A DNA stretch of 23,015 nt. Source: a virus. Positions 1-7,810 of the stretch are shown in pieces (the stretch's first letter is position 1; every line of letters starts with the position of its first letter). The translations under genes and the position numbers were made by a program. A model generated the notes under the pieces. It saw only the letters and a program-made list of their open reading frames with translations. It was not told the DNA's origin and searched no databases. The stretch lies in the IMG/VR virus record IMGVR_UViG_3300008517_000100, positions 1-23,015 of that record; one strand, written 5' to 3'.

Positions 1-67
1 ATTAAAAAAAAAATAAAAGAGTGGTTAAAATCTTTTTTTTATTAAAAACTTTATGAAAAGGTAAAAA

Positions 68-2293: not shown

Positions 2294-2824
2294 ATGACCG
2301 AAGAAATTCACAATGGTGAAATTTGTTCAAGGATATGTCGAGAGGATGATTTTTACGATGGAAAATATCCTATATTTTCAGATGATGGCTTATTTTTTGA
2401 AGTATTTAATGTTGAGCCGAAAGGAAAAATTAGAGAAATAGAAAAAAAACGTTTTGACAAAAAAATAATGGCGATTAGAACAGCTAGTGATACTGGTTTT
2501 AGTGTGTTATCTGATGATTGTTTTCTTGCTTATCACTTTGACACAAAGCCATCAGACGATGTAATAGATAAAATGAAAAAATTTGCAAATAATGAAAGGA
2601 AAAAGTATAAGCAATTTAGAAAAAATTATGTCGAAAGAGCTATAAATCATTTAAATAATAAAGAATTATCAGAGGAAGAGAGAAAGCACGCTAAATTATT
2701 TTTTGCTGCGCAGGGAATTTGTGAGAATGGAATTTTAAAGCAAACTGATGAAGAATCTAACAATTCTTTTTGGAAGTTGTTAGAGTCTTCAATTGAGAAG
2801 GGACAAAAAAATGTACGATTATGA
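2294..2824 (+). CDS. Hypothetical protein between terL and portal
   Basis: Unknown protein, 176 aa, with a perfect AGGAGG 7 nt before the ATG. It begins 15 nt after terL and overlaps the portal start by 14 nt, so it belongs to the packaging operon and is probably translationally coupled to portal. The first half is mixed alpha/beta with aromatic residues (FYDGKYPIFSDDGLFFEVFN near 20-40). The second half is charged and helical (DKMKKFANNERKKYKQFRKN, about 90-110), consistent with a coiled or helical hairpin. No signal peptide, membrane segment or cysteine cluster is seen. P22 has no gene at this position. Position suggests a packaging or procapsid accessory role, but nothing in the residues proves it. 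Confidence 0.85.
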   Translation: MTEEIHNGEICSRICREDDFYDGKYPIFSDDGLFFEVFNVEPKGKIREIEKKRFDKKIMAIRTASDTGFSVLSDDCFLAYHFDTKPSDDVIDKMKKFANNERKKYKQFRKNYVERAINHLNNKELSEEERKHAKLFFAAQGICENGILKQTDEESNNSFWKLLESSIEKGQKNVRL

Positions 2825-4898
2825 TAATAAATCTGAACTTGATAAAAAAATAGATCAAATAAAAGACTGGTTTTCTTATTTTCGTGAAAATAATGAAAGG
2901 GGCCGCGAGCTTAAAGTATTTTTAATGGGCGATCAGTGGGATGATAAAGCACAAGCTTATTATGCTACGCATAACAAAGTACCAATGGTTGTAAATAAAT
3001 TGTATGCGTTTGTTATGCAATTAATTGGTGAGAATAGACAAGTTTCACCAAATTTAAAAGTAATACCAGCTTATTATAATGAAGATGATGAGGCGGTAAG
3101 TAAAGAAATTGAGCTGGTAGAGGATATTGTCAAGTCTGTTGCCTACGGATCAAAATCAGATGTTGTCTACGAAACTGCTTACAAAAATCAGTTAATTGTT
3201 GGATATGGCGCAATACTTGTCTATACAGAATATAGAAACGAAAACTCATTCGATCAAGAAATAAAGCTTTTAGCGATAGATGAACCTGAATGTTGTTATT
3301 TCGACCCATCTGCTAAAGAATTAGACAAATCAGATGGCGAATATTGCGGGATAATATCAAGAATATCTAAGAATGAATTCAAAGAAAAATATCCTAATAT
3401 TGATGTGGCGGATATAAAAAGCGTATGTATGACTGATAGAGATAGTAAAATAGAATGGATAGATGAAAACACTGTATGTATTGCTGATCATTATTATAAA
3501 GAATGGAAGAAAAAAAAGATATGTAAGCTTAATGATGGAGATACTGTTGATAAAGATGAAGTCGATAAAATATTAAGAGATAGAAACAAACGGCTTAAGA
3601 TGATGCAGCAAGCTGAAATGCTTGCAGAAGCCCAGGGGCAAAGAATAAATCTAACAAATGGATTAGATAAAATTAAAATTGTAGATGAAAGAACAACATC
3701 TTATTGTGAAATCAAACATTGTAGACTTACACGAAATGAGATCTTAGAAGAAGACGAGTGGCCATCTAAGTTCTTACCGCTAGTATTTGTTGATGGTGAC
3801 AGTTATCACGTCGGAGGTGAACAATTTGTTCGCCCGTTTATACAATTTGCAGTTGATACTCAAAAGTTTATAAACTATTGTGCAACTGAAACAATTAGTT
3901 ATATAAAAGGCGGTAGAAAAGAAAGGTTTCTTGCCACTACTGCAAACGTAGAAAATCATCAAAATGCCTGGAAAGGGGTTGATAATGATAATCTAGCTTT
4001 ATTATATGATCCTGATACACGGACAAATCAACCGCCGATAGCCATACAGCCGTTAGAAATACCTCAAACATTATTACAGCAGTATCAAAGGGCTGAGTAT
4101 GACTTATATACAATACTTGGAAGATATGAGTCAAATGTTGGGGCTAAAGGAAATGAAGTTAGCGGTGTAGCTATAGCGAATAGAGTCAAACAAGGGAATG
4201 TTACTGCTCTTGTTTACCCAGATAATTTATTACGTTCTCAAAATCAAGTTGGCCGTATTATTTTAGATTTAATACCTACAATTTATGATACATATAGAAA
4301 TGTTGTCATTAATAAAGATGGGGTCGGTAAGAAAACTATTGAGATAAACAAACAGGTAGAAAAAGATAAATACGAAAATAGAATTGAAAGAAAAGATTAT
4401 GAGATCGATATAACAGGAGGAAGTTCTTTTGCCATGCAGAAGTCTGAAGCTTACTCTCAATTAATGGATTTAATCGCGCGTATTCCTGCATTTGGTAATA
4501 TCATACCCGATTTGGCTGCTGAAAACTTAGAATTAAGTAATACTCCTAAGATTGTTGAACGCGCTCGCGAGTATTTAATACCGCAAATTGCTATGAAAGA
4601 ACAGGGGAAAGAGCCACCTCCGCCAAAAGAAGATCCACAAGCTGTGTTAATGAAGAGTATGGCACAATCAGAAAATAAAAAAGCAGATGCTAGTTTGATG
4701 TCTGCTCAATCAAGAATGATTAAAGCTCAGGCTGACTTGAAAAAAGACTTTTCTAAGGATCAGGCAGATAAGATCAAAGCATCGGCAGAGGTTGGGAAAG
4801 CAAGTCTTCAATATCAACAAGAAGTTATAAAAACTGATAATGCAAAACTTGAAAGAGAAAATAAGGCGATGAGAGATATTTTAAATCTCGAAGAATAA
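2811..4898 (+). CDS. Portal protein, P22 gp1-like
   Basis: Dodecameric portal, 695 aa, forming the DNA channel at one capsid vertex, binding terminase during packaging and the tail afterwards. Features: GDQW (40-43), then VPMVVNKLYAFVMQLIGENR (57-76), then YFDPSAKELDKSDGEYC (163-179). This order matches the P22 portal family (P22 gp1 is 725 aa). After a PPPP turn (602-605) the last 90 residues are almost uninterrupted Ala/Gln/Lys helix, matching the C-terminal barrel of P22 portal that reaches into the capsid. I chose ATG 2811 because GAGAAGGGA lies 7 nt upstream; an in-frame TTG at 2793 lies within or before that ribosome binding site and is unlikely. It overlaps the preceding gene by 14 nt. 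In P22-like phages scaffold follows directly; here a roughly 750-bp insert intervenes. Confidence 0.94.
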   Translation: MYDYDNKSELDKKIDQIKDWFSYFRENNERGRELKVFLMGDQWDDKAQAYYATHNKVPMVVNKLYAFVMQLIGENRQVSPNLKVIPAYYNEDDEAVSKEIELVEDIVKSVAYGSKSDVVYETAYKNQLIVGYGAILVYTEYRNENSFDQEIKLLAIDEPECCYFDPSAKELDKSDGEYCGIISRISKNEFKEKYPNIDVADIKSVCMTDRDSKIEWIDENTVCIADHYYKEWKKKKICKLNDGDTVDKDEVDKILRDRNKRLKMMQQAEMLAEAQGQRINLTNGLDKIKIVDERTTSYCEIKHCRLTRNEILEEDEWPSKFLPLVFVDGDSYHVGGEQFVRPFIQFAVDTQKFINYCATETISYIKGGRKERFLATTANVENHQNAWKGVDNDNLALLYDPDTRTNQPPIAIQPLEIPQTLLQQYQRAEYDLYTILGRYESNVGAKGNEVSGVAIANRVKQGNVTALVYPDNLLRSQNQVGRIILDLIPTIYDTYRNVVINKDGVGKKTIEINKQVEKDKYENRIERKDYEIDITGGSSFAMQKSEAYSQLMDLIARIPAFGNIIPDLAAENLELSNTPKIVERAREYLIPQIAMKEQGKEPPPPKEDPQAVLMKSMAQSENKKADASLMSAQSRMIKAQADLKKDFSKDQADKIKASAEVGKASLQYQQEVIKTDNAKLERENKAMRDILNLEE

Positions 4899-4908
4899 AA
4901 TATGATAA

Positions 4909-4937
4909 TATGGCGCGTGACAACTCACTACGCCATA
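4909..4937 (+). terminator. Hairpin downstream of portal
   Basis: TATGGCG (4909-4915) pairs with CGCCATA (4931-4937), and GTGA (4917-4920) with TCAC (4925-4928), leaving a CAAC loop and a small internal loop. This gives 11 bp with a GC-rich core 10 nt after the portal stop. No T-run follows on the + strand, so it is a poor intrinsic terminator. It could be an RNA-processing or stability hairpin, or a protein-binding dyad at the left edge of the portal-scaffold insert. Confidence 0.5.
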
Positions 4938-4989
4938 CAATCGCGACTAAATAATATCATTATATTTTGACATTACAAGTAATACAAAT

Positions 4990-5304
4990 ATGCCAACTGT
5001 AGAATATCCGAACAATTTAAAGCCGCTTGTTTCTGTTATGACAGAAAAATATTTTATTATTAAAAGTAAAAAATTGAAAAACGGAAATGAATTATTGGTT
5101 AATGATGGTGCTACAAAATATTACTTGATACTTGACTTTCAAGGATTTAAAAATTTTAGATTTAATAAAAATGATAGATTTAAAGCACAAATAAAAATAG
5201 AACAAGTTATGAATGTTATTAGTTTTTCATTAATAACTAAAACTTATGTCAGAAAAATTATTTATTATCATACACAATGTTACAGGGATTATATTGATAT
5301 CTGA
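4990..5304 (+). CDS. Orphan hypothetical protein in the portal-scaffold insert
   Basis: ORF of 104 aa, basic and beta-rich (TEKYFIIKSKKLKNGNELLV, 18-37; RFNKNDRFKAQIKIEQV, 57-73). Its C-terminus is rich in Tyr and Ile and ends in YRDYIDI. I recognise no family and see no helix-turn-helix, zinc site or membrane segment. It has no convincing ribosome binding site at ATG 4990; the alternative ATG at 5038 is no better. Codon use is AT-rich and compatible with the neighbourhood. It is flanked by hairpins (4909-4937 and 5335-5360) and lies next to the iterons and DnaA boxes, so a role at that element (such as repeat binding) is conceivable but unproven. It may also be a moron or a non-expressed ORF. 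Confidence 0.55.
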   Translation: MPTVEYPNNLKPLVSVMTEKYFIIKSKKLKNGNELLVNDGATKYYLILDFQGFKNFRFNKNDRFKAQIKIEQVMNVISFSLITKTYVRKIIYYHTQCYRDYIDI

Positions 5305-5334
5305 TATTTTTATCGTTTTCCTGTTCATAAAAAC

Positions 5335-5360
5335 TAACCGTATCTAATTCGACACGGTTA
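5335..5360. terminator. Hairpin, possible bidirectional terminator
   Basis: TAACCGT (5335-5341) and ACGGTTA (5354-5360) form a perfect 7-bp stem with a TC/GA extension inside. On the + strand AAAATAATTTT follows; on the - strand GTTTTTATG follows, which is the better T-tract. It lies 30 nt after the 104-aa ORF and could end its transcript or insulate the repeat region. Confidence 0.4.
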
Positions 5361-5400
5361 AAAATAATTTTCAAAACAGTTAAAAATAGCAATATAGTAG

Positions 5401-5452
5401 CTTCCCAACTAGCTTCCCAACTTCCCAACTAACTTCCCAACTAACTTCCCAA
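5401..5452. repeat. Iteron-like array, five copies of CTTCCCAA
   Basis: Perfect 8-mers begin at 5401, 5413, 5421, 5433 and 5445, with start-to-start steps of 12, 8, 12 and 12. The 4-nt spacers are CTAG, none, CTAA, CTAA. Seen from the other strand the unit is TTGGGAAG. I noticed no further exact copy in the window. Non-coding, tandem, same-orientation repeats beside DnaA boxes are typical of initiator (Rep) binding sites. Repressor operators or a repeat made by replication slippage are alternatives. Confidence 0.75.
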
Positions 5453-5461
5453 GAAAAATAT

Positions 5462-5501
5462 CGCGTATCGAAAACACGCAACTGCATATCAGAAATACGC
5501 G
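5462..5501. repeat. Inverted repeat between iterons and DnaA boxes
   Basis: CGCGTAT (5462-5468) and ATACGCG (5495-5501) are perfect 7-bp arms separated by 26 nt. An alternative shorter pairing exists (GCGT 5463-5466 with ACGC 5476-5479). The arms stand out as GC-rich in very AT-rich surroundings. They may be a protein-binding dyad or a stem; no immediate T-run follows the right arm. Confidence 0.45.
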
Positions 5502-5523
5502 CAATAATCTTTTATTTTTTGCA

Positions 5524-5566
5524 TGTGGATAACTCTGTGGATAAGTTGTTAATAAGTTGTGGATAA
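5524..5566 (-). promoter_or_regulatory. DnaA box cluster (three perfect, one degenerate)
   Basis: TGTGGATAA occurs at 5524-5532, 5536-5544 and 5558-5566. Each is the exact reverse complement of the E. coli DnaA box TTATCCACA. TGTTAATAA at 5547-5555 is a two-mismatch copy in phase with them. Four boxes in 43 bp in one orientation is far beyond chance and points to binding by host DnaA. This is the main reason to suspect an origin here. Confidence 0.8.
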
Positions 5567-5569
5567 GTC

Positions 5570-5597
5570 TTGCAATTAATCTTATTTTTTATATAAT
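5570..5597 (+). promoter_or_regulatory. Sigma70-like promoter for scaffold/coat
   Basis: TTGCAA (5570-5575, 4 of 6 matches to TTGACA), a 16-nt spacer and a perfect TATAAT (5592-5597) would start RNA near 5604, about 60 nt before the scaffold ATG at 5665. The leader contains CATGT/ACATG (5612-5625). The last DnaA box ends only 4 nt before the -35, so DnaA binding could affect this promoter. In such AT-rich DNA a perfect -10 alone is weak evidence. Confidence 0.45.
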
Positions 5598-5664
5598 AAT
5601 CTTAAATTAACCATGTAATTTCACATGAGGTTATATACGCCTATTAATGTATAGCAGGAGCTTT

Positions 5665-6525
5665 ATGTCTGAGAATGAAGAAATCGTTGCGAAAGAAGAA
5701 GTACAGCAAGACAATGAGTCTGTTGAAGAAGTAACTACAGAAGAAGAATCATCTTCTAACGAAAATGAAGAAGCTTCGAATGAAACAGATCAACAAGATG
5801 AAGGTCAAGAGGAAAATTCTGATAGCAAAGATGAACAGACTAAAAATCATGAGGCACTAGATTGGGTAAAAAAGCGATTAGCGCAAAAAGATAGACAGAC
5901 AAATAGGCGATTAAAAGATAAAGAGCGTGAAATTTCTGAGTTAAAGCAACAGGTTGCTACTATTTATCAACCATTGCAGCAAGACGTTCAGCAATTAACA
6001 CAAGGGCAGATAGTAGACCCGTTTACTGGTTCTTATGTTGACGAAGAAAGTGTCGATGGCAAGGTTGTTAAAAAGTTGCAGCAAATAAAGCAAGCAGAAA
6101 TTATTCAAAAACAACAGTATGAGTTACAAAATCAATTTAGATCATTTAATGACAAAGTAAATGAGGCTAGAGATAAATATGTTGATTACGAGGATGTTGT
6201 TGATGAAGCAAAACCGTATTTATCTCAAACTATGGTAGAAACCATGGTAGTTTCACCTACTGGTGTAGAGATTTTTTATAATACTTGGAAAAACAATCCA
6301 GATAAAATTAAAGAAATTTCTAAACTGCCTGTTTCTCAACAAATTAGAGCAATGCACCGCTTAGAATTTGCCGAAGAAAATAAAATTCAGCAAAAGCTTA
6401 AGTCTAACGCCCCAAAGCCGATATCTCCTGTAAAACCGACCGCTTCAATTGCGAATGATGATAGTTTTGAATCTATCTTAAAGCGCAAAAGAGAAGAACA
6501 GAAAAGACAGTATGGTGTTAAATAA
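5665..6525 (+). CDS. Scaffolding protein
   Basis: Internal scaffold, 286 aa, that directs coat assembly around the portal and leaves before DNA entry; P22 gp8 is 303 aa. The first about 62 residues are extremely acidic (Glu/Asp/Ser/Asn/Gln-rich), followed by the charged helix HEALDWVKKRLAQKDRQTNR (63-82) and long Gln/Lys/Glu coiled-coil segments. The protein ends in the basic helix LKRKREEQKRQYGVK, comparable in placement and charge to the basic C-terminal coat-binding helix of P22 scaffold. I prefer ATG 5665, which has AGGAG 5 nt upstream, over the in-frame ATG at 5647, which has none and would place that AGGAG inside the gene. It lies directly before coat. Assignment rests on composition and position, since scaffolds diverge rapidly. 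Confidence 0.88.
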   Translation: MSENEEIVAKEEVQQDNESVEEVTTEEESSSNENEEASNETDQQDEGQEENSDSKDEQTKNHEALDWVKKRLAQKDRQTNRRLKDKEREISELKQQVATIYQPLQQDVQQLTQGQIVDPFTGSYVDEESVDGKVVKKLQQIKQAEIIQKQQYELQNQFRSFNDKVNEARDKYVDYEDVVDEAKPYLSQTMVETMVVSPTGVEIFYNTWKNNPDKIKEISKLPVSQQIRAMHRLEFAEENKIQQKLKSNAPKPISPVKPTASIANDDSFESILKRKREEQKRQYGVK

Positions 6526-6583: not shown

Positions 6584-7810
6584 ATGGCTAATACTTATAT
6601 TAACAGTGAACTTTTATCTAAAAGCGCTGTTGCTCATTTCAGATTAAACAATACATTTTTCGGAACAGCTAACCATGCTTACGATGGAATGTTTATTGAT
6701 AAAACATATGATCCAGGAAATACTGTAAATCTTAGATTAAAAAACTTTGGTAAAGTTCAACGTGGAAATACTGTTACTGCAGTTGATATCGTTGAAACAT
6801 CTTTGCCATTGACTTTGCAACAACTATATAGTTACCCAGTTACTTATACTACTGATGATTTATCAACAAAATTAAGAATGAATACATGGATGGATCGAGT
6901 TTTTTATCCTGGCGTTGATTCTTTAGTAGCTGAAATCAATAAGGATATTGCAGCCAATGCGGCATTGGTTACTTATAACTGGGATGGTGTAGTTGGTACA
7001 GAAATCAGTACTTTTGCTGCAGTTGATACTATAAGTGCACAAATGGACGAACTGGCTATCCCTATGGCTAATCGTTATATGGCGTTAACTCCTGGCAATT
7101 CTTCAAAACTAAAATCATCATTACAAAATTCATTCAATACAACATTGAATGAAGAAATAAGTATTGGTTCAAGAATGGGTAAATTATCTACTTTTGAGAT
7201 GTACTCAGAACAATTAATTGCAACACACGCAGCTTATCCTGCTGCTTCGATAGGAACTCCTGTTGTAAATGGTGCTGTAACAAGTGGTAATACAATAGTC
7301 CTTAGTGGATTAACTGCTTCAATTACAGGAATATTTAAAGCAGGGGATGTGATTTCAATTTCTGATGTATTTAAGGTTGATCCTATAGCTAAAAACAATG
7401 CTGGCCACAAAATGCAATTTGTTATAACTGCAGATGCTGATAGTACTGCTGGTGGTGCTTGTACTATTTTGGTCTCTCCAACAATTATTGGTGATTCTAC
7501 AAATCCTAATCAGAATATTGTTAATTCGCCAGCTGTTGCAACAAATGAAATCCCAAATGGGGCAACAGTTTTTCGACCAGAAACACATAAAGCAAACATT
7601 GCTTATACCAATGAATCTTTATATTTTGTTACTCCTCCATTGGCAAAGTTCGATGTGGAAGAATCATATACCTTCAAAGATCCTGAAACTGGATTGTCAA
7701 TGCGTGTTTCAAAATCAGCAGAGATTTTAAACAATAAAAACGTTTTACGTATTGATATTCTTTGTGGTTATTTATGGATTCCTTCACATACTTTCCGTGT
7801 TATTACTTAA
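6584..7810 (+). CDS. Major capsid (coat) protein, P22 gp5-like
   Basis: Coat protein, 408 aa (P22 gp5 is 430), with an HK97-type core that forms the icosahedral shell. The N-terminal part carries KTYDPGNTVNLRLKNFGKVQRG (40-61) and a helical spine (YPGVDSLVAEINKDIAANAA, 108-127). A Gly/Val/Ser-rich beta stretch at about 225-330 (with IFKAGDVISISDVFKVDP, 250-267) matches the extra insertion domain that distinguishes P22-type coats. The chain then returns to the core at HKANIAYTNESLYFVTPPLA (335-354). The start has AGGAG 7 nt upstream. The 58-nt gap before it shows no clear promoter; a terminator-like hairpin follows directly, suggesting coat is the end of a highly expressed transcript. Confidence 0.94.
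   Translation: MANTYINSELLSKSAVAHFRLNNTFFGTANHAYDGMFIDKTYDPGNTVNLRLKNFGKVQRGNTVTAVDIVETSLPLTLQQLYSYPVTYTTDDLSTKLRMNTWMDRVFYPGVDSLVAEINKDIAANAALVTYNWDGVVGTEISTFAAVDTISAQMDELAIPMANRYMALTPGNSSKLKSSLQNSFNTTLNEEISIGSRMGKLSTFEMYSEQLIATHAAYPAASIGTPVVNGAVTSGNTIVLSGLTASITGIFKAGDVISISDVFKVDPIAKNNAGHKMQFVITADADSTAGGACTILVSPTIIGDSTNPNQNIVNSPAVATNEIPNGATVFRPETHKANIAYTNESLYFVTPPLAKFDVEESYTFKDPETGLSMRVSKSAEILNNKNVLRIDILCGYLWIPSHTFRVIT

Follow-up and report, generated by a model that had tools for sequence, protein, structure and literature searches.

The DNA analyzed here, referred to as the window, is a linear IMG/VR fragment of 23,015 bp carrying the late genes of a P22-type podovirus. Genes for terminase, portal, scaffold, coat, Hc3, ejection protein, tail fibres, endolysin, and holin were recognized in it, and no replication gene was recognized in the window. 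On the plus strand, the gene for a P22-type portal protein (2793–4898, PHROG 156) is followed by a 104-aa ORF without known relatives (4990–5304) and then by the largest intergenic gap of the window, which spans 360 bp. Beyond the gap lie the scaffolding protein gene (5665–6525, PHROG 8865), encoding 286 aa from the ATG at 5665 with an in-frame ATG also at 5647, and, in the same direction, the gene for a P22-type coat protein (6584–7810, PHROG 283). The gap holds a cluster of DnaA boxes, which a preliminary description of this DNA had located inside a capsid operon, between portal and scaffold. Both the operon and the order of portal before the cluster and scaffold and coat after it hold, but the cluster itself occupies non-coding DNA and lies in no gene. 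The gap also contains, upstream of the boxes, tandem repeats CTTCCCAACTAA at 5401–5452 (plus strand, period 12, 8-bp unit). These TTCCC repeats, TTCCCAACTAAC, found no match when searched in plasmids and matched many unrelated coding arrays in viral contigs, which suggested no function. They are flanked by two minus-strand terminator-like hairpins (5334–5361 and 5460–5482) hinting at an antisense transcript, and three terminator-like sites were found over 4850–6000 versus 0.3 expected. Single-protein searches with the coat and portal proteins returned no relatives in viral or genome contigs, and no match to the phage of the window was found in genome contigs; portal relatives were found only with an alignment of eight portals as the query.

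Within the cluster, the word TGTGGATAA occurs exactly at 5524–5532, 5536–5544, and 5558–5566, and a two-mismatch copy of it, TGTTAATAA, lies at 5547–5555. Read on the minus strand, these correspond to DnaA boxes 1, 2, and 4, each TTATCCACA, and to a degenerate box 3, TTATTAACA. Successive starts are separated by 12, 11, and 11 bp, and all four boxes point the same way, as originally described for 5524–5566. The identification of the sites as DnaA boxes by sequence also stands, as they equal the DnaA consensus, and the AT-rich tract reported to follow them is real and ranks among the least stable stretches of the window. A count over the whole 23,015-bp record, which the preliminary description had suggested, returned exact TTATCCACA sites in this cluster only. 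Third-order Markov copies of the window contained a mean of 0.155 exact boxes, and a pair or triple of exact boxes within 60 bp appeared in 0 of 400 such copies. With up to two mismatches allowed, the window shows no excess of sites (108 found vs. 105 expected), so the signal is this one cluster. Rfam gave no match at the array.

The AT-rich tract holds a sigma70-type candidate promoter, TTGCAA-16-TATAAT, which starts 3 bp past the last box. Its −35 hexamer, TTGCAA (5570–5575, plus strand), is weak, with four of six matches, and its −10 hexamer is TATAAT (5592–5597, plus strand). The estimated transcription start near 5604 places the box centres at about −76, −64, −53, and −42, and the scaffold mRNA would then begin with a leader at 5604–5664 (plus strand), including a Shine-Dalgarno sequence, AGGAG (5656–5660, plus strand), ahead of the scaffold ATG. 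Promoter matches of 9–10 out of 12 are common in AT-rich DNA, with 8 found here versus 6.2 expected. The leader is nearly invariant over 5625–5664, where the window would encode a short peptide, MRLYTPINV, ending at a stop codon; in the close relative described below, this frame continues into the scaffold gene.

This relative, contig L132 (identities of 69% for portal, 75% for coat, and 60% for scaffold), carries four boxes in the equivalent position, at 11/11/11 spacing, followed by a 3-bp gap, TTGCAA, 16 bp, and TATACT. The box centres fall at −75, −64, −53, and −42, almost as in the window, and the counterpart of degenerate box 3 is a consensus box, TTATTCACA. The boxes of the two phages are identical at 33 of 36 positions, compared with 40% at fourfold silent sites in five genes (P 1e-10), whereas the sequence of the 16-bp spacer and most of the upstream DNA have diverged. 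Of the three box changes, two affect the N position of TTWTNCACA, the DnaA consensus as given in PMC12371093. Judged from these substitutions, the boxes of the cluster are under selection. A leader block, GAGGTTATATACGCCTATTAA, is nearly identical in L132, and its core, GGYTATRTRCGCC, recurs in contigs L362 and L420. The DnaA boxes adjoin conserved −35 and −10 hexamers upstream of a gene, and the spacing between boxes and promoter is constrained across relatives and unrelated phages, both as expected of a DnaA-regulated sigma70 promoter. The existence of a DnaA-box promoter ahead of the scaffold gene is regarded as highly probable.

Recurrence of this arrangement was assessed by scanning viral contigs, with no gene requirement, for two boxes 11 bp apart followed after a gap of 0–12 bp by TTGNNN-16..18-TANNNT; the window and L132 are absent from this set. 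The scan returned 85 stretches, in which a gap of 3 bp was the commonest by far (22 of 69 distinct sites, and 12 of the 24 scoring at least 9), giving a design that can be written as TGTGNATAA-N2/3-TGTGNATAA-N3-TTG. With homology families grouped on downstream sequence and the boxes masked, gap 3 accounted for 12 of 28 family-by-gap entries scoring at least 8/12 (P 4e-7 if gaps were uniform) and for 9 of 20 scoring at least 9. Measured against the bias of TTG position, for which arrays retrieved with no demand for a promoter gave a gap-3 share of 0.129 (only 31 TTGs), the family peak gave P 9e-5. Gap-3 sites had weaker −35 hexamers than sites with another gap (4.05 vs. 4.89 of 6, p 0.012, uncorrected for relatedness), which is expected of activator-dependent promoters. 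Two gap-3 "promoters" are not trusted, the one in L354 resembling a dif site and the one in L423 a further box-like repeat; both are still in the family counts, and dropping them would weaken, but not remove, the peak. In L354, DnaA boxes adjoin a dif-like site, GGTGCGCATAATGTGTATTATGTTAAAT, over 1255–1310. Contig L345, with five boxes and a TTGCAA promoter, came from a promoter-requiring scan and does not enter the statistics. When promoters were sought next to DnaA arrays in general, they were not enriched; the signal emerged only once distance was considered. Few of 115 arrays collected mostly without a promoter requirement have an adjacent promoter, so most phage DnaA arrays do something other than promoter control.

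The link of gap-3 sites to late genes is strong but not complete. A P22-like scaffold gene, or a gene in the scaffold position, comes next in five further contigs. The order is portal, array, scaffold, and coat in L409 and L350, and portal, array, scaffold-like gene, and coat in L385/G002, while L362 and L420, which are too short to include the portal, show array, scaffold-like gene, and coat. The head scaffolding family PHROG 8865 was matched in L420, L350, and L409; L362 and L385 had no scaffold match among the PHROGs, and for these two the assignment relies on gene order and the coat gene. Other gap-3 sites (G003, L349, L113) precede a head protease and major head protein, a tail sheath, or a tail fibre gene, and the site in L355 precedes a small gene and the terminase small subunit within a terminase operon. 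For the gap-3 families of the L370 group, L378/L404, and L381/L414, the next gene has no assigned role or none is near. The most elaborate case is G003, a 34,953-bp myophage in which all ten exact boxes are distributed over four arrays on one strand. Every array lies 3 bp away from a TTG hexamer, and a start codon follows 58–75 nt after its last box; the arrays precede the head protease, sheath, and fibre genes and a 98-aa ORF without an assigned role.

The same box word is found in podoviruses and in a myophage, an observation that bears on who reads it. Phage late promoters usually use phage activators, and since parts of these genomes are missing, a phage-encoded activator other than DnaA could in principle recognize the boxes. 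Such a protein would have to share its word between podoviruses and a myophage, and its sites would have to coincide with the DnaA consensus and to vary, in two of the three differences between the window and L132, at the position where that consensus is degenerate; this explanation is considered improbable. A search of these phage records for a DnaA C-terminal domain found none, which makes the host's DnaA the expected binder.

The four arrays of G003 likewise bear on the suggestion, made in the preliminary description, that the cluster could be an additional replication origin in the structural region. Under this explanation the boxes, an AT-rich unwinding tract, and iteron-like TTCCC repeats would form a DnaA-dependent origin, much as plasmid and phage iteron origins such as P1 oriR combine tandem repeats, DnaA boxes, and AT-rich DNA. 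The window does contain a cluster of DnaA boxes adjoining a low-stability tract, and tandem TTCCC repeats lie upstream of the boxes in both phages, with a related array, TTCCCGGGTAAC, at 6258–6376 of L132. L132 also has a perfect 19-bp inverted repeat at 6870–6910 (z −8.3 as DNA) that overlaps the array and carries the DnaA box TTATTCACA in its stem, recalling R6K-type DnaA-box hairpins. However, unlike P1 oriR, the window array has no adjacent initiator gene, and the low-stability tract beside the boxes contains the promoter hexamers, which are conserved while the spacer between them has diverged. Cumulative GC skew, proposed earlier as a check, rises through the whole window, a 23-kb fragment only, with no turn near the array and just a small local dip at 5001–5750. 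The consensus for IHF, sought over 5300–5680, had no match, which also sets the array apart from datA/DARS-type titration or reactivation sites, and DnaA-trio-like runs near the array are only A/T-rich stretches on the minus strand. No replication gene was recognized in the window, and four arrays at gene starts, as in G003, are not how an origin is built. It had also been reasoned that the same box density at many unrelated positions of a genome would argue against an origin. Such repetition does occur in G003, but its positions are gene starts, mostly of late genes, rather than unrelated sites. Overall, an origin at this site appears very improbable.

From the boxes, the promoter-like hexamers, and their fixed spacing, conservation, and recurrence, we infer DnaA binding, activation rather than repression, and a purpose for the arrangement. 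The sigma70 promoter would start transcription of scaffold and coat inside the late operon, after the portal gene, with host DnaA occupying, head-to-tail, boxes that are spaced by one helical turn. Class II activators act at about −41, and by comparison with them, boxes that lie only upstream, on one helical face and next to a weak −35, have the geometry of an activator site. A DnaA array ending 3 bp upstream of the weak −35 would thus most likely recruit or stabilize RNA polymerase. The likely use of the promoter is to lift scaffold and coat production over the level of terminase and portal, and it can be speculated that this output is tied to host DnaA and to the replication state. Taken as a whole, the reading of the array as the upstream control element of a sigma70 scaffold/coat promoter, with host DnaA as its most likely activator, is judged probable, although for activation of the scaffold promoter by DnaA as such the chances seem about even. 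As a transcription factor, DnaA is known to activate or repress according to its nucleotide and its level (PMC8203912), and lambda promoters are among those at which it acts (PMC3985674, PMC8203912).

The converse, in which DnaA represses the scaffold promoter, would make the array a replication-counting timer: DnaA on the array would block the polymerase early and be titrated away as phage DNA replicates, and the operon would turn on once promoter copies exceed free DnaA. The boxes do adjoin the promoter, and ATP-DnaA can repress, as at dnaA and nrdAB (PMC8203912). There is, moreover, a second promoter class, in contigs L034, L074, L110, and L413, in which the 17-bp spacer between the −35 and −10 of a TTGACA promoter contains a DnaA box, a repressor-like layout that would suit repression. 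The boxes of the window, in contrast, are confined to the upstream side of a weak −35, with an 11-bp phase and a fixed 3-bp distance, which is activator geometry, and repression here seems rather unlikely. Consensus boxes in many phage copies could also bind much DnaA, so that the array might act as a sink drawing DnaA from oriC and slowing host replication, with no promoter role. A sink needs neither a fixed 3-bp distance to the −35 nor a place before structural genes, and this function is extremely doubtful.

The main known roles of DnaA are to start chromosome replication and to regulate a modest set of host genes. Activation of the phage promoter by DnaA would have its nearest counterparts in the bacterial dnaA and nrdAB promoters, where DnaA boxes likewise lie beside a sigma70 promoter and DnaA is an activator or a repressor (PMC8203912); the phage sites differ in having two to four consensus boxes, a strict 11/12-bp register, a fixed −35 distance, and structural genes downstream. 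At lambda pR and pO, host DnaA acts at a phage promoter, as proposed here, but there two DnaA-box-like sites are located downstream of pO and function in early replication, whereas the present boxes are upstream of the −35 and precede late capsid genes (PMC3985674, PMC8203912). In T5-like phages, DnaA boxes cluster in non-coding DNA as part of the stop signal for first-step-transfer injection (PMC13250531). Records of T5-like phages match the array, with their boxes at the injection stop region, while those of the window stand before a structural gene. No description of DnaA-box late promoters in phages was found in the open-access literature, the scope of the search, and their novelty is provisional. 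It is possible, though put at somewhat below even, that unrelated uncultured phage groups (P22-like podoviruses, a sheathed myophage, and others) share host DnaA as an activator of late structural genes through a fixed design with boxes at −42, −53, and −64, wiring virion synthesis to the replication initiator, with the four promoters of the myophage forming a DnaA regulon. If so, late genes would be regulated by a host replication factor, in place of late activators and antiterminators encoded by the phage, and box position, box number, and −35 strength would offer a simple promoter design for studying what makes DnaA an activator or a repressor. It would also be a warning that not every phage DnaA-box cluster is an origin.

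The array is absent in about 80 P22-like portal relatives (26–32% identity), and the isolated P22-like relatives (L124–L130) have no box cluster. On the portal tree, the array phages do not form one clade; their distribution requires three changes on a tree with several very long branches, which leaves gain, loss, and transfer indistinguishable. Other arrays depart from the design: a reversed three-box array near the portal start in G001, a box pair at 7230 in G002, and a box pair directly before the portal ATG in G004 have no promoter at the right distance, and three boxes in L161 (spacing 12, 21), located where a small gene ahead of terminase begins, do not fit. Between its portal gene and its DnaA array, L132 carries a DUF3800-IX RNA (5997–6068; Rfam RF02968, 44.3 bits, above the cut-off) that has no counterpart in the window. 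The same contig encodes, at 165–1040, a 291-aa ORF without a Pfam match that consists of repeated DCKDC/GCDGC-like units, with a cysteine at about every third residue.
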